Notes under the pieces: model-generated
What the model was told of the DNA's origin: nothing
Database searches by the model: none
The model's input: only the letters and a program-made list of their open reading frames with translations
Assembly: GCA_030828175.1 (NCBI GenBank)
Contig: JAURDB010000006.1
Span: forward strand, 1 to 40,525
Source: Flavobacteriales bacterium
GTDB lineage: Bacteria; Bacteroidota; Bacteroidia; Flavobacteriales_D; Sanyastnellaceae
Direction: 5' to 3'
Length of the DNA: 40,525 nt
Made by a program: the position numbers and the translations under genes
Shown here: positions 13,689-18,862 of the stretch, in pieces
How positions within the stretch are numbered: the first letter of the stretch is position 1
Layout of the letters: each line of letters opens with the position of its first letter

Positions 13689-13966
13689 GTGCGCGTGCAT
13701 TTTCTCGAAGCCACTGTCAGACCCTGTTCATTGCAGTGTTGGCAATGATGATGGTGGATTGCACTCCCCACCGCAATGTTCAACGCACCAAACGGAAGCG
13801 CAAGCCCAAATGCAAGACCTGCCCTTCGTTTTCCGCCCTGCCCACACGCACAGACAAGGCATTACCTTTGCCGCCTGAACAGCAAGGCACTGCGCTATGG
13901 CCCTACATGACCACACCTACGCCGTCATCATGGCAGGCGGAGTCGGATCCCGCTTTTGGCCGATGA
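13685..13966 (+). CDS. Possible small lipoprotein, uncharacterised
   Basis: This 93-codon frame starts at an ATGA overlap with the fumC stop and extends 70 bases into manC. It encodes a basic N-terminus, a hydrophobic segment ([12 protein letters not shown]), then Cys26, which could be lipidated, although the preceding Asp is unusual for a lipobox. A lysine/arginine-rich stretch with a CKTC pair follows. The overlap junction resembles other gene starts in this window, which favours a real gene. The long overlap with manC and the lack of a recognised family argue against it. Confidence 0.45.
13863..13870 (+). promoter_or_regulatory. TACCTTTG -7 box upstream of manC
   Basis: This is a perfect TAnnTTTG match ending 26 bases before the manC ATG, inside the end of the preceding small ORF. 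No clear TTG is seen at the expected spacing. Confidence 0.4.
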
Positions 13967-14991
13967 GCCGTTCAGGCCGGCCCAAACAGTTTCTCGACAT
14001 TTTGAACCGCGGCCGGACCCTCATTCAGATGACCGCAGACCGCTTGGAGCCCATGCTCCCATATGAGCGCATGTTCGTGGTCACCAACGTCCGCTATAAG
14101 GACGAGGTCATGGCCCAGCTCCCCAACCTTCCGGAAGACCAGATCCTGTGCGAGCCGTTCATGCGCAACACAGCGCCATGCTTGGCTTACGCACATCACA
14201 GCATCGCAAGGAAGGACCCCAATGCGACCATCGTGGTGGCTTCCGCGGATCACTTGATTGAAGACGAGGATGGATTTCGGGATGTGCTCGATGTAGCCGT
14301 GCAGCAGGCTTCAGAAACAAACCAGCTGCTTACCCTCGGCATTACCCCTACCCGGCCCGATACCGGTTATGGGTACATTCAATACGAGGAGCTTCCACGG
14401 GCCATCGACGAGCGGCTTCAGCAGGTTCGCACTTTTACTGAGAAGCCGAACCGTGAACTGGCCGAGGAGTTCATCGCCTCGGGCGACTTCTGCTGGAATT
14501 CAGGGATTTTCGTGTGGTCCCTTGCGACCATCCAGGACCAGTTCGAAGCCCAGCTTCCGGATTTGCACAGCGCGTTCATCGAACGATTGGATGATTTGGG
14601 GACGGAAAGAGAGGCCGAAGCCATCCGTGCCATTTTCGGAGCCGCCGAAAACATCTCAATCGACTATGGCATCATGGAGGGAGCACCCAATGTCGGGGTG
14701 GTTCTCGGTGACTTTGGATGGAGCGACCTCGGAACCTGGGGCTCGTTATATGACAAGCTGCCGAAGGATGCCGAAGGCAATGCGCTGAGTGGCGCGGCGC
14801 TGATTGGTGAAGATGCGAAGGGCCTGATGGTGGCCTGCGAGAACGGTAAGCTAGTGGTAGCCAAAGGGTTGAAGGACTTCATCATCGCAGATACGCCCGA
14901 CGCCCTCCTGCTCTGCCCGAGAAACGAGGAACAGTGGGTGAAGCAATTGGTTTCGCAGCTGAAGGCAGACAAGGGGGAACCGTTGGTGTAA
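13897..14991 (+). CDS. manC: Mannose-1-phosphate guanylyltransferase
   Basis: This 364-residue cytoplasmic nucleotidyltransferase makes GDP-mannose from GTP and mannose-1-phosphate, the precursor for surface polysaccharides. The N-terminal nucleotide-binding signature is [14 protein letters not shown] followed by the Lys in RPKQFLDIL. Later markers are EPFMRNTAPCLAYA, VASADHLIED, the TGYGYIQYE motif, VRTFTEKP, WNSGIFVW and FGWSDLGTWGSLY. It lacks the C-terminal isomerase (cupin) domain of bifunctional ManC/AlgA, so it is the short single-function type. It follows fumC and the small ORF, and mlaE begins 58 bases later. Confidence 0.95.
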   Translation: MALHDHTYAVIMAGGVGSRFWPMSRSGRPKQFLDILNRGRTLIQMTADRLEPMLPYERMFVVTNVRYKDEVMAQLPNLPEDQILCEPFMRNTAPCLAYAHHSIARKDPNATIVVASADHLIEDEDGFRDVLDVAVQQASETNQLLTLGITPTRPDTGYGYIQYEELPRAIDERLQQVRTFTEKPNRELAEEFIASGDFCWNSGIFVWSLATIQDQFEAQLPDLHSAFIERLDDLGTEREAEAIRAIFGAAENISIDYGIMEGAPNVGVVLGDFGWSDLGTWGSLYDKLPKDAEGNALSGAALIGEDAKGLMVACENGKLVVAKGLKDFIIADTPDALLLCPRNEEQWVKQLVSQLKADKGEPLV

Positions 14992-15049: not shown

Positions 15050-15787
15050 ATGGGACTCTTATTCCATATCGGGCGATACTTTGCATTCATGGGGTCGGCC
15101 TTGCGCAGGCCTCAGCGGGCGAGGGTTTTCTTCCAGTCCACGCTGGTTGAGCTTGAAGCCATCGGGGTGCAAAGTGTGGGCATCGTAGCCCTGCTCAGCC
15201 TTTTCATGGGAGCCGTAATCGCCATTCAAACGGCTCACCAGGTGAGTGGTTGGATTCCGGCATATACCGTAGGGTTTACTGTGCGGCAGACGATGATCCT
15301 CGAGTTTGCCCCGACCATCATTCCGGTCATCCTATCGGGAAAGGTGGGATCGAACATTGCTTCTCAGATTGGCACGATGCAAGTGACCGAGCAAATCGAT
15401 GCACTCGAAGTGATGGGGGTTCGCAGCATTTCCTATCTCGTGTTGCCGAAGTTGTTTGCGGCTTTGCTGATTTTCCCCTTTCTCGTTGTGATTTCCATGG
15501 TATTGGGAATCGGCGCGGGTGCTTGGGTGTGCAATACAGCCGATTTGAGCAGTTTCGCCGACTACAAGTATGGAATCCAAATGGATTTCAGTGCGTTTGA
15601 TGTGACCTATGCGCTGATCAAGACGTGCGTCTTCTCTCTCATCATTACCAGTGTCAGCGCCTATCACGGTTTCTACACCGCGGGAGGTGCACGAGAGGTG
15701 GGCAGATCCAGTACCAAGGCGGTGGTGTACAGCGTGGTGATCGTGATGGTGGCCAACCTGGTCATTACTCAATTGCTGCTGACATGA
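15050..15787 (+). CDS. mlaE: MlaE-family ABC transporter permease
   Basis: This 245-residue inner-membrane protein has about five or six hydrophobic segments. It belongs to the MlaE/TrnB permease family, which moves phospholipids between the inner and outer membranes. Family phrases include ALLSLFMGAVIAIQTA, FAPTIIPVILSGKVGSNIASQIGTM, EQIDALEVMGV and the ending STKAVVYSVVIVMVANLVITQLL. The stop overlaps the mlaF start (ATGA), so the two are translationally coupled. No MCE-domain substrate-binding protein (MlaD) is encoded nearby. Confidence 0.93.
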   Translation: MGLLFHIGRYFAFMGSALRRPQRARVFFQSTLVELEAIGVQSVGIVALLSLFMGAVIAIQTAHQVSGWIPAYTVGFTVRQTMILEFAPTIIPVILSGKVGSNIASQIGTMQVTEQIDALEVMGVRSISYLVLPKLFAALLIFPFLVVISMVLGIGAGAWVCNTADLSSFADYKYGIQMDFSAFDVTYALIKTCVFSLIITSVSAYHGFYTAGGAREVGRSSTKAVVYSVVIVMVANLVITQLLLT

Positions 15788-16545
15788 TCCGGGTTCAGGG
15801 AGTCGGAAAGTCGTTTGGTGAAAAGAAGGTGCTTCACGGCATTGACGCTGCCTTTGATGCAGGCGCTGTGAACTTCATCATTGGCCGCAGCGGTTCCGGG
15901 AAATCGGTATTGACCAAGTGCATGGTGGGGTTGCTCGAGGTAGACGGAGGGACGGTTCACTTCGGTTCAGATGATTTCACGGCGATGCGCTTCAAAGAGC
16001 GCGAAGTGGTGCGCCGCCGCATTGGAATGCTCTTCCAAGGGGGGGCCTTGTTTGATTCCATGACCGTGCTGGAAAACGTGGAATTTCCGCTGCGCATGTT
16101 CTCTGAAATGGGCGCAGATGAACGGATGGAGAGGGCCATGGAGTGCTTGCGTCGCGTTGAGTTGGAGGGGGCAGAGCACCGGTTTCCAGCGGAGATTTCA
16201 GGCGGAATGCAAAAGCGCGTGGCGCTGGCCCGTGCCATTGTAGGCCGACCGAAGTACCTGTTTTGTGACGAACCCAACTCGGGGCTGGACCCCCAGACAG
16301 CCATCGTCATCGACAATCTCATCCGGGACTTGACCCAGGAGTACGGCACCACAACCGTCGTGATTTCCCATGACATGAACAGCGTCATTGAGATTGGCGA
16401 TAACATCCACTTCCTCCACAATGGAAGGGTGGCCTGGTGCGGAGACCGCTCAGAGATACTCAACAGCGGAGTCGAAGTGCTGGACAGTTTTGTCTACGCC
16501 TCGGATTTGATGCGGGACATTCGGAGCAAACTGCAGGGGAAGTGA
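15784..16545 (+). CDS. mlaF: MlaF-type ABC transporter ATP-binding protein
   Basis: This 253-residue cytoplasmic ATPase partners MlaE. Walker A is GRSGSGKS (residues 34-41), followed by a Q-loop in GMLFQGGALFDSMTV. The signature is ISGGMQKR, Walker B is YLFCDEPNSGLDP and the switch His is in VISHDM. The LFQGGALFDSMTVLENV stretch is typical of the Mla/Ttg2A branch. The start at ATG 15784 overlaps the mlaE stop. Two bases separate it from the next gene, so mlaE, mlaF and the flavoprotein gene probably form one operon. Confidence 0.94.
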   Translation: MIRVQGVGKSFGEKKVLHGIDAAFDAGAVNFIIGRSGSGKSVLTKCMVGLLEVDGGTVHFGSDDFTAMRFKEREVVRRRIGMLFQGGALFDSMTVLENVEFPLRMFSEMGADERMERAMECLRRVELEGAEHRFPAEISGGMQKRVALARAIVGRPKYLFCDEPNSGLDPQTAIVIDNLIRDLTQEYGTTTVVISHDMNSVIEIGDNIHFLHNGRVAWCGDRSEILNSGVEVLDSFVYASDLMRDIRSKLQGK

Positions 16546-16547
16546 AC

Positions 16548-17234
16548 ATGGAGGAGGGCCCGCATATTCCCTATGGATTGCCCCGTTTGACGGTCGAGGA
16601 AATGCGCGCCAGGCTGGGCGCCATGCACGACCACCTTGCTGGGCGAAGAAGCGTCCGGTCCTTTCGTCCAGACCCCGTTCCGCTGGACATTCTCGATGAG
16701 GTCATCCGCATCGCAGGAACCGCTCCCAGTGGCGCACACAAGCAGCCTTGGACCTTTTGCGTCGTCACGGACCCTGTGCTTCGAAAGAAGATCCGAGCCG
16801 CTGTAGAGGAGGAAGAATACAAGAGCTATTCAGGAAGGATGTCGGACCGTTGGCTGCAGGATTTGGAGCCGTTGGCCACCAACCACATCAAGCCTTTCAT
16901 TGAAGAGGCACCGGCACTGATCATCGTATTCCGCAGGGTGCACGAGGTGCACGCCGAAACTGGGGAAAAGCATCCGAATTATTACGTGCAGGAAAGCTGT
17001 GGCATTGCCGTGGGTCTTCTGCTGGCTGCTTTGCACGAAGTCGGCCTTGCAGCCCTGACCCACACGCCATCACCCATGAACTTCTTGGCAGAGATTCTCC
17101 AAAGGCCGTCCAATGAGCGCGCATTTCTCAATATTCCCGTCGGATGGCCTTCAAATGACGCTACGGTGCCTAACCTTTCTCGCAAAAGGTTGGACGAAAT
17201 CCGGGTGAAGTATACCGACAACACAGAAATTTGA
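16548..17234 (+). CDS. Iodotyrosine deiodinase-like flavoprotein (nitroreductase superfamily)
   Basis: This 228-residue FMN enzyme closely follows the iodotyrosine deiodinase (IYD) branch of the nitroreductase fold. Shared phrases are RRSVRSF near residue 33, AGTAPSGAHKQPWTF (56-70), the lid EEEEYKSYSGRM, NHIKPFIEEAPALI, GLLLAALHEVGL, PVGWPSNDATVP and RKRLDEI. The three residues that clamp the amino-acid end of iodotyrosine in IYD are present as Glu90, Tyr94 and Lys115, with the spacing (4 and 21) of mammalian Glu157-Tyr161-Lys182. Bacterial IYD homologues that reductively dehalogenate halotyrosines are known, including one from the Bacteroidota member Haliscomenobacter. It has no membrane anchor. 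The likely reaction is reductive dehalogenation of a halotyrosine; the natural substrate is unknown. It lies 2 bases after mlaF. Confidence 0.85.
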   Translation: MEEGPHIPYGLPRLTVEEMRARLGAMHDHLAGRRSVRSFRPDPVPLDILDEVIRIAGTAPSGAHKQPWTFCVVTDPVLRKKIRAAVEEEEYKSYSGRMSDRWLQDLEPLATNHIKPFIEEAPALIIVFRRVHEVHAETGEKHPNYYVQESCGIAVGLLLAALHEVGLAALTHTPSPMNFLAEILQRPSNERAFLNIPVGWPSNDATVPNLSRKRLDEIRVKYTDNTEI

Positions 17235-17257
17235 TAATATAATCAACTGATTAACAA

Positions 17258-17281
17258 GGGGTTGAGATAAAAAACAACCCC
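17258..17281. terminator. Hairpin after the deiodinase-like gene
   Basis: GGGGTTG (17258-17264) and CAACCCC (17275-17281) can pair across a 10-base A-rich loop, 24 bases after the stop. No T run follows, so it is a weak terminator candidate. It separates the mla operon from acpP. Confidence 0.4.
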
Positions 17282-17325
17282 ATAGTGGGCAAGTTTCAGG
17301 AAAGGTCGAATCAGGGCTCCCGCGC

Positions 17326-17333
17326 TAATTTTG
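17326..17333 (+). promoter_or_regulatory. TAATTTTG -7 box upstream of acpP
   Basis: This is a perfect TAnnTTTG match ending 40 bases before the acpP ATG in an intergenic stretch. A second weaker box, TACTTTG, lies near 17343. No clear -33 TTG is seen. The position suits the start of the acpP-fabF-rnc transcript. Confidence 0.5.
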
Positions 17334-17373
17334 CAGGACTTTACTTTGCACCGCATTCGCAACAATTGAAATC

Positions 17374-17607
17374 ATGTCTGATATCCGCGAAAAAGTGACC
17401 GCTATCATCGTCGACAAGCTCGGCGTAGATGCATCTGAAGTGAACGACGAGGCAGGCTTCACCAACGACCTCGGTGCGGACTCGCTTGACACCGTCGAGC
17501 TGATCATGGAATTCGAAAAGGAATTCAACATCGCCATCCCGGACGACCAAGCCGAGAAAATCGGTACCGTCGGCCAAGCCATCGAGTACATCGAGAACGC
17601 GAAGTAA
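17374..17607 (+). CDS. acpP: Acyl carrier protein
   Basis: This 77-residue acidic protein carries growing acyl chains on 4'-phosphopantetheine during fatty-acid synthesis. The attachment Ser37 lies in the signature [10 protein letters not shown]. It is followed 7 bases later by fabF, the usual arrangement, and probably heads an acpP-fabF-rnc operon. Confidence 0.98.
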
Positions 17608-17614
17608 GCCCCAC

Positions 17615-18862
17615 ATGGAGCTGAACCGTGTTGTCGTCACGGGGATGGGTTGCCTGACACCGTTGGGCAATGACGTGCCTTCCTTTTTCGCAGCCCTCAA
17701 GAAGGGGGTCAGCGGGGCCGGTCCTATTACCCGATTCGATGCTTCCAAATTCAAGACGCAGTTCGCCTGCGAGTTGAAGGATTGGGACGTCAGTGAGCAC
17801 TTCGATCGAAAAGAAGCGCGCAAACTGGACCCCTATGCCCAATATGGAATTGTGGCCGCCCGCCAGGCGGTCGCGCATTCTGGCTTGGCGGATTCCCAGC
17901 CTGATCTCGATCGGGTGGGCGTCATTTTCGGCAGTGGCATAGGTGGCATCCTGACCTTTCAGCAGGAGATCATGTCCTTCGTAGAGGGAGATGGTACGCC
18001 CCGGTTCAACCCCTTCTTCATACCGAAGATGATCGGCGATATCTGCGCCGGCCACATCAGCATGGAGTTCGGGTTCCGCGGTCCCAATTATGCCTGCGTT
18101 TCTGCCTGTGCCAGTGCCACCAATGCCATCATAGACGCATTCAATGCCATCCGATACGGAAAGGCAGATGCCATGATCAGCGGCGGTGCAGAGGCGGCAG
18201 TCGTAGAGGCAGGCATCGGTGGATTCAGTGCCATGAAGGCGCTCTCAACCCGCAATGAAGACCCCAGTATCGCGTCCCGACCTTTTGACGAGCACCGCGA
18301 TGGCTTCGTTCTCGGAGAAGGGGCCGGTGCGCTCGTGCTGGAATCCCTCCAACACGCCCAAGCACGCGGGGCCAACATTATTTGCGAGGTCATGGGAGGA
18401 GGTGCATCTGCAGATGCACACCATCTGACGGCTCCTCACCCGGAGGGACTCGGTGCCCGAAATGTGATGCGGGCGGCATTGAAGGATGCAGGCATGGCAC
18501 CGGATGAGGTGGATTACGTCAATGTTCACGGGACGTCCACCCCGCTGGGAGACTTGGCGGAAGTCAAGGCCATCGAAGAGGTTTTTGGACCCCACGCGGA
18601 GGCACTCAGCATCTCCAGTACGAAATCGATGACCGGTCACCTTTTGGGTGCAGCCGGTGCGGTTGAGACGCTGGCCTGCATCATGGCGGTGACCGAGGAT
18701 GTGATCCCGCCTACCATCAACTCCACACATCCTGACCCGGCCTTGAATCAGAACTTGGACTTCACGTTCAACATCAAGAAGGAGCGCCAGGTGCGTGCTG
18801 CCCTTTCCAACACTTTTGGATTTGGCGGACACAACGCTTCGGTCATCGTCCGCAAGTTCTGA
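17615..18862 (+). CDS. fabF: 3-oxoacyl-ACP synthase II
   Basis: This 415-residue condensing enzyme elongates acyl-ACP with malonyl-ACP. The catalytic triad is Cys165 (CVSACASATNAI), His305 (VNVHGTSTPLGD) and His342 (KSMTGHLLGAAGA). The glycine-rich C-terminal motif FGFGGHNAS is present. The start MELNRVVVTGMGCLTPLG is the family N-terminus. Its stop overlaps the rnc start by one base. Confidence 0.98.
   Translation: MELNRVVVTGMGCLTPLGNDVPSFFAALKKGVSGAGPITRFDASKFKTQFACELKDWDVSEHFDRKEARKLDPYAQYGIVAARQAVAHSGLADSQPDLDRVGVIFGSGIGGILTFQQEIMSFVEGDGTPRFNPFFIPKMIGDICAGHISMEFGFRGPNYACVSACASATNAIIDAFNAIRYGKADAMISGGAEAAVVEAGIGGFSAMKALSTRNEDPSIASRPFDEHRDGFVLGEGAGALVLESLQHAQARGANIICEVMGGGASADAHHLTAPHPEGLGARNVMRAALKDAGMAPDEVDYVNVHGTSTPLGDLAEVKAIEEVFGPHAEALSISSTKSMTGHLLGAAGAVETLACIMAVTEDVIPPTINSTHPDPALNQNLDFTFNIKKERQVRAALSNTFGFGGHNASVIVRKF

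Follow-up and report, generated by a model that had tools for sequence, protein, structure and literature searches.

Does the gene that directly follows mlaF in this Flavobacteriales genome encode a true iodotyrosine deiodinase (IYD), and does its place beside a lipid transporter say anything about its role? IYD removes iodine from iodotyrosine in the thyroid. The family is known from mammals to bacteria (2026 review PMC13078365, citing Phatarphekar 2014).

The window, a 40,525-nucleotide stretch, carries the IYD gene at positions 16548-17234 on the + strand, with an ATG at 16548-16550 and a stop codon ending at 17234. The 228-residue product is a predicted FMN-dependent iodotyrosine deiodinase orthologue of the nitroreductase superfamily (PF00881). 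Upstream on the same strand are a mlaE-like lipid ABC permease (15050-15787; PF02405, E 9e-63) and a mlaF-like ABC ATPase (15787-16545; PF00005), whose stop codon (16543-16545) lies 2 bp before the IYD ATG, as the first-pass annotation had stated. That annotation also spoke of an mla operon. The mlaE and mlaF genes are indeed directly upstream, but they are the only ones, with no mlaD alongside, and the window's genome, 84% complete, has its single MlaD-domain match on a different contig (C48, L210). On the 3' side, a gap of 139 bp (17235-17373, +) with a 7-bp hairpin (GGGGUUG...CAACCCC) and no T-tract separates IYD from acpP and fabF (17374-18862, +), which are common neighbours of IYD loci in other families of the order, and rnc follows. 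IYD is probably the final gene of an mlaEF-IYD unit. Upstream of mlaE, the window (13897-14991) and the three loci nearest to it (L004-L006) carry manC on the + strand; in the remaining loci of the group compared (L007-L030) manC is on the opposite strand.

Family assignment and substrate clamp

A Pfam scan of the protein returns PF00881 alone (83 bits). The RRSVR, PSGAH and PW motifs are conserved in the orthologue alignments, giving the protein the predicted FMN-binding residues of the nitroreductase-superfamily fold. The best matches in the PDB sequence search are the HhIYD entries 5ko7, 5ko8 and 5krd (E 3e-74), followed by the IYDs of mouse and human (E 1e-56 to 1e-59). Generic nitroreductases score no better than 1e-10, and BluB reaches 5e-4. 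The window protein is 53% identical to HhIYD, 48% to the mouse enzyme and 46.5% to the human enzyme. HhIYD and human IYD share 45%, and the window protein and HhIYD are therefore about equally close to the animal enzymes. Its bacterial orthologues are 53-78% identical to it.

A quick tree of 61 proteins groups the window protein with HhIYD, the bacterial orthologues and mammalian IYD (SH-aLRT 96), and a careful tree of 48 proteins recovers the same group including the animals (95/93, in 96% of bootstrap trees). BluB and the other nitroreductases fall outside this group in both trees; the IYD tree is unrooted, leaves out 6PZ0 and has several weak branches within its bacterial part. The first-pass annotation had read the protein as an IYD and not an ordinary nitroreductase, and had named a phylogeny against the IYD, BluB and nitroreductase clades as the check. 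The PDB search and the trees uphold that reading, with the window protein inside the IYD clade at 95/93. On sequence grounds the gene is an orthologue of HhIYD, and it is predicted to encode a new IYD of an already known type.

Three residues that would form the substrate clamp are present: Glu90 (codon 16815-16817, +; HhIYD E91, human E157), Tyr94 (16827-16829, +; Y95, Y161) and Lys115 (16890-16892, +; K116, K182). Alignment to HhIYD and human IYD confirms the earlier claim of a complete clamp, and the spacings of 4 and 21 are the same in all three proteins. Thr173 (codon 17064-17066, +) aligns with human Thr239, which sits beside flavin N5; a structure of a human Thr239 mutant (5yak) is among the structural-search matches. 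The three clamp residues and Thr173 are each invariant in 78/78 bacterial orthologues and match HhIYD, mouse and human, and all four are again among the invariant columns of a separate 26-sequence alignment. Neither BluB nor either of the window genome's two further nitroreductase-family proteins has the full clamp set. This absence, together with the invariance, excludes chance as the source of the clamp.

Members of the PF00881 superfamily catalyse a wide range of reactions, bacterial IYD has no established natural role, and the loci compared show no pathway genes linked to IYD. On these counts the protein could be an unspecialised nitroreductase or flavin reductase, with the IYD fold retained and no natural halotyrosine substrate. 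We consider this improbable, since a full clamp that is invariant across orthologues at 53-78% identity implies that selection has favoured a phenolic ligand of amino-acid type, and the other nitroreductase-family members in the same genome lack it.

The mlaEF neighbourhood

Loci were compared in three sets: the window's family, other families of the order, and lineages outside the order. In the window's family, mlaF is upstream and acpP-fabF downstream of IYD in all 28 IYD-bearing genomes examined, and mlaE is also upstream in all but two, where the flanks are short. Upstream mlaEF is found at none of 26 loci in the other families of the order, where acpP-fabF is downstream at 16 of 25 informative loci. 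Outside the order, neither mlaEF nor acpP-fabF is beside IYD at any of 20 loci. Further loci taken from genome contigs, which partly overlap, agree with this pattern.

Genomes of the window's family without IYD retain mlaF with an adjoining mlaE in 14 of 15 cases. Two of them (G201 and G129) have mlaF followed directly by acpP. In a third, G212 (L190), a decayed piece of IYD (46 aa, 37%, E 3e-6) remains between mlaF and acpP, together with a weak match to the C-terminal part in the correct order; here the IYD gene has been lost and mlaEF left intact. The more widely shared IYD neighbour within the order is acpP-fabF. Because much of the order has IYD adjoining acpP but no mlaEF there, acpP appears to be the older neighbour. 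In the simplest history, IYD preceded acpP in the order, mlaEF then joined it in one family, and IYD could be lost with mlaEF undisturbed, a direction to which parsimony points.

An apparent spacing of -4 between mlaF and IYD, a 4-bp stop/start overlap, occurs at 23 of 44 measurable loci, a count in which loci are not independent, the start is the nearest ATG and nine loci with nonsense distances are left out. The spacing is 2 bp in the window, and some further genomes of the family have about 50-160 bp. With about half of the measurable relatives showing the overlap, IYD is likely to be co-transcribed with mlaF in this lineage, as the first-pass annotation had proposed. The same annotation connected the gene to a lipid transporter. 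The co-transcription part of that proposal is likely, but there is no general link, since the mlaEF association is found in one family only and mlaEF survives the loss of IYD. Across lineages the association is absent at 46 other loci. Functional coupling of IYD and Mla as a general rule is ruled out by the synteny and the empty-site genomes. The mla neighbourhood was a tempting functional clue, and its restriction to one family removes it. The likely shared transcription with mlaF is lineage-specific and does not point to shared function.

A coupling confined to the window's family is a narrower proposal, in which IYD would work with MlaEF, either by acting on (for instance reducing) a phenolic or membrane-derived compound that the transporter handles or by sensing redox state for the transporter through its flavin. 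The constant mlaF-IYD order in the 28 IYD-bearing genomes and the 4-bp overlap at 23 of 44 loci speak for it. There is also a precedent for a non-enzymatic role, as the C. elegans IYD orthologue SUP-18 modulates a potassium-channel complex (PMC3930498). We nevertheless judge this coupling very unlikely. The 26 loci in the other families and the 20 outside the order carry IYD without adjoining mlaEF, much of the order has it beside acpP instead, and mlaEF persists at two empty sites and one decayed remnant.

Predicted structure and characterised relatives

The AlphaFold2 model of the protein, built with 26 orthologues, has a mean pLDDT of 91.2 and a pTM of 0.85, with pLDDT 86-95 per ten-residue block over the clamp. 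Foldseek with VIA-align gives iodotyrosine-bound 5ko8 (5ko8_B) as the top match (E 7.9e-29; Z 27.1 and rmsd 1.9 Å over 218 residues), with iodotyrosine-bound 4ttc_A also among the top matches (Z 26.9). Amino-acid-bound HhIYD, mouse and human chains rank above the shorter unliganded ones, so the model appears to have the closed-lid arrangement. Superposition of this ligand-free monomer model would place the clamp over FMN.

The closest characterised relative is HhIYD from Haliscomenobacter hydrossis (PDB 5KO7, 5KO8, 5KRD), of the same phylum and likewise 228 aa long. Its clamp residues, Thr173 equivalent, and KQPW and THTPSPMN motifs are all as in the window protein, and structures of it with FMN and iodotyrosine already exist. 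One difference is that, in the TDW/TNW stretch preceding the clamp Lys, the window protein has His113 in place of Trp; 27 of the 78 orthologues also have His at this position. Mammalian IYD/DEHAL1 (3GFD, 3TNZ, 4TTC) is 46-48% identical and has the same fold, an identical clamp and the Thr239 equivalent, with TEPW in place of KQPW and TTTPLN in place of THTPSP. Unlike the mammalian enzyme, the window protein begins at the catalytic domain and its 228 residues leave no space for a membrane anchor. A more distant match is 6PZ0 (192 aa, named iodotyrosine deiodinase; Z 23.0, 34% identity), which is without the N-terminal ~23 residues and which we take to be the single-domain IYD of Thermotoga neapolitana.

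BluB 2ISJ has the same flavin fold as the model (Z 18.1) at 19% identity. A BluB-type 5,6-dimethylbenzimidazole synthase is the top NCBIfam match of the window protein, but its probability is negligible and we rule it out, the score being 67.6 bits where the cut-off is 150 and the BluB proteins forming a separate clade (97/95 in the careful tree) in which those of Bacteroidota are without the clamp.

Proposed function, pathway clues and distribution

Taken together, the window gene very probably encodes a cytosolic, homodimeric, FMN-dependent IYD of the HhIYD/animal family that would dehalogenate a clamp-held halotyrosine, its pairing with mlaEF being one of position. The reading frame, its orthology, the fold, and the invariance of Thr173 and the clamp residues come from the present analysis; FMN use, dimerization, lid closure and dehalogenation are extended to the window protein from characterised IYDs. 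Glu90, Tyr94 and Lys115 in the lid would grip the zwitterion of a 3-halotyrosine, and the lid would shut over the flavin. Thr173 would hydrogen-bond with flavin N5 and favour one-electron steps, and reduced FMN could then reductively remove iodide, bromide or chloride to yield tyrosine. Transcription with mlaEF in the window's family would reflect position and not shared function.

The physiological role may be an accessory one, either salvage of free halotyrosine to tyrosine or its detoxification. This is about an even bet, and it is the clamp alone that makes it the most probable role; the enzymatic assignment is much firmer. Among the IYD neighbours compared there are no halotyrosine-pathway genes; the conserved neighbours serve lipid transport and the synthesis of fatty acids. 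In other lineages, inspection by eye finds no common theme (PurN, SDR, HisIE/HisF, DoxX, RsmI and others). A shared neighbour pathway elsewhere was rejected, the neighbours being unrelated between lineages.

The gene for 4-hydroxyphenylpyruvate dioxygenase (4-HPPD) is present in 61/88 genomes with IYD and in 104/208 without it (odds ratio 2.26, P 0.003, kinship ignored), and 27 IYD-bearing genomes lack it. This is a modest association, and phylogeny confounds it. In the window genome 4-HPPD is on another contig. The sole tyrosine-catabolism neighbourhood seen is in G377 (L207; G377:C128:1-12000), where 2.5 kb separates IYD from 4-HPPD and a homogentisate-dioxygenase-like gene and an Lrp/AsnC-like regulator lies in the interval. 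This arrangement is not repeated among the 114 genomes of G377's order, the nearest other case seen being at 32 kb (G489). A link of IYD to tyrosine catabolism is a weak, post hoc lead.

By profile search, IYD is present in 88 of the 296 genomes sampled across the phylum (87 of the 291 good ones), corresponding to 54 of 140 genera, and in 56 of the 150 genomes of the order. It is always single-copy, and in Bacteroidota it is a patchy accessory gene. True IYDs bearing the clamp are thus common, single-copy, patchy accessory genes in this phylum, and their natural role should therefore be approachable by comparing strains with and without the gene. The first-pass suggestion of a possibly aquatic host is consistent with the isolate names of near relatives. 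Two loci, L020 and L082, match IYD but have no intact IYD reading frame according to the ORF caller, and L082 has an in-frame stop inside the matched stretch; these are possible pseudogenes or sequencing errors. Contigs PBNL01000015.1 (L008, labelled Euryarchaeota) and NVWA01000018.1 (L062, labelled Planctomycetota) carry IYD in a Bacteroidota-type gene order, and both labels look wrong.
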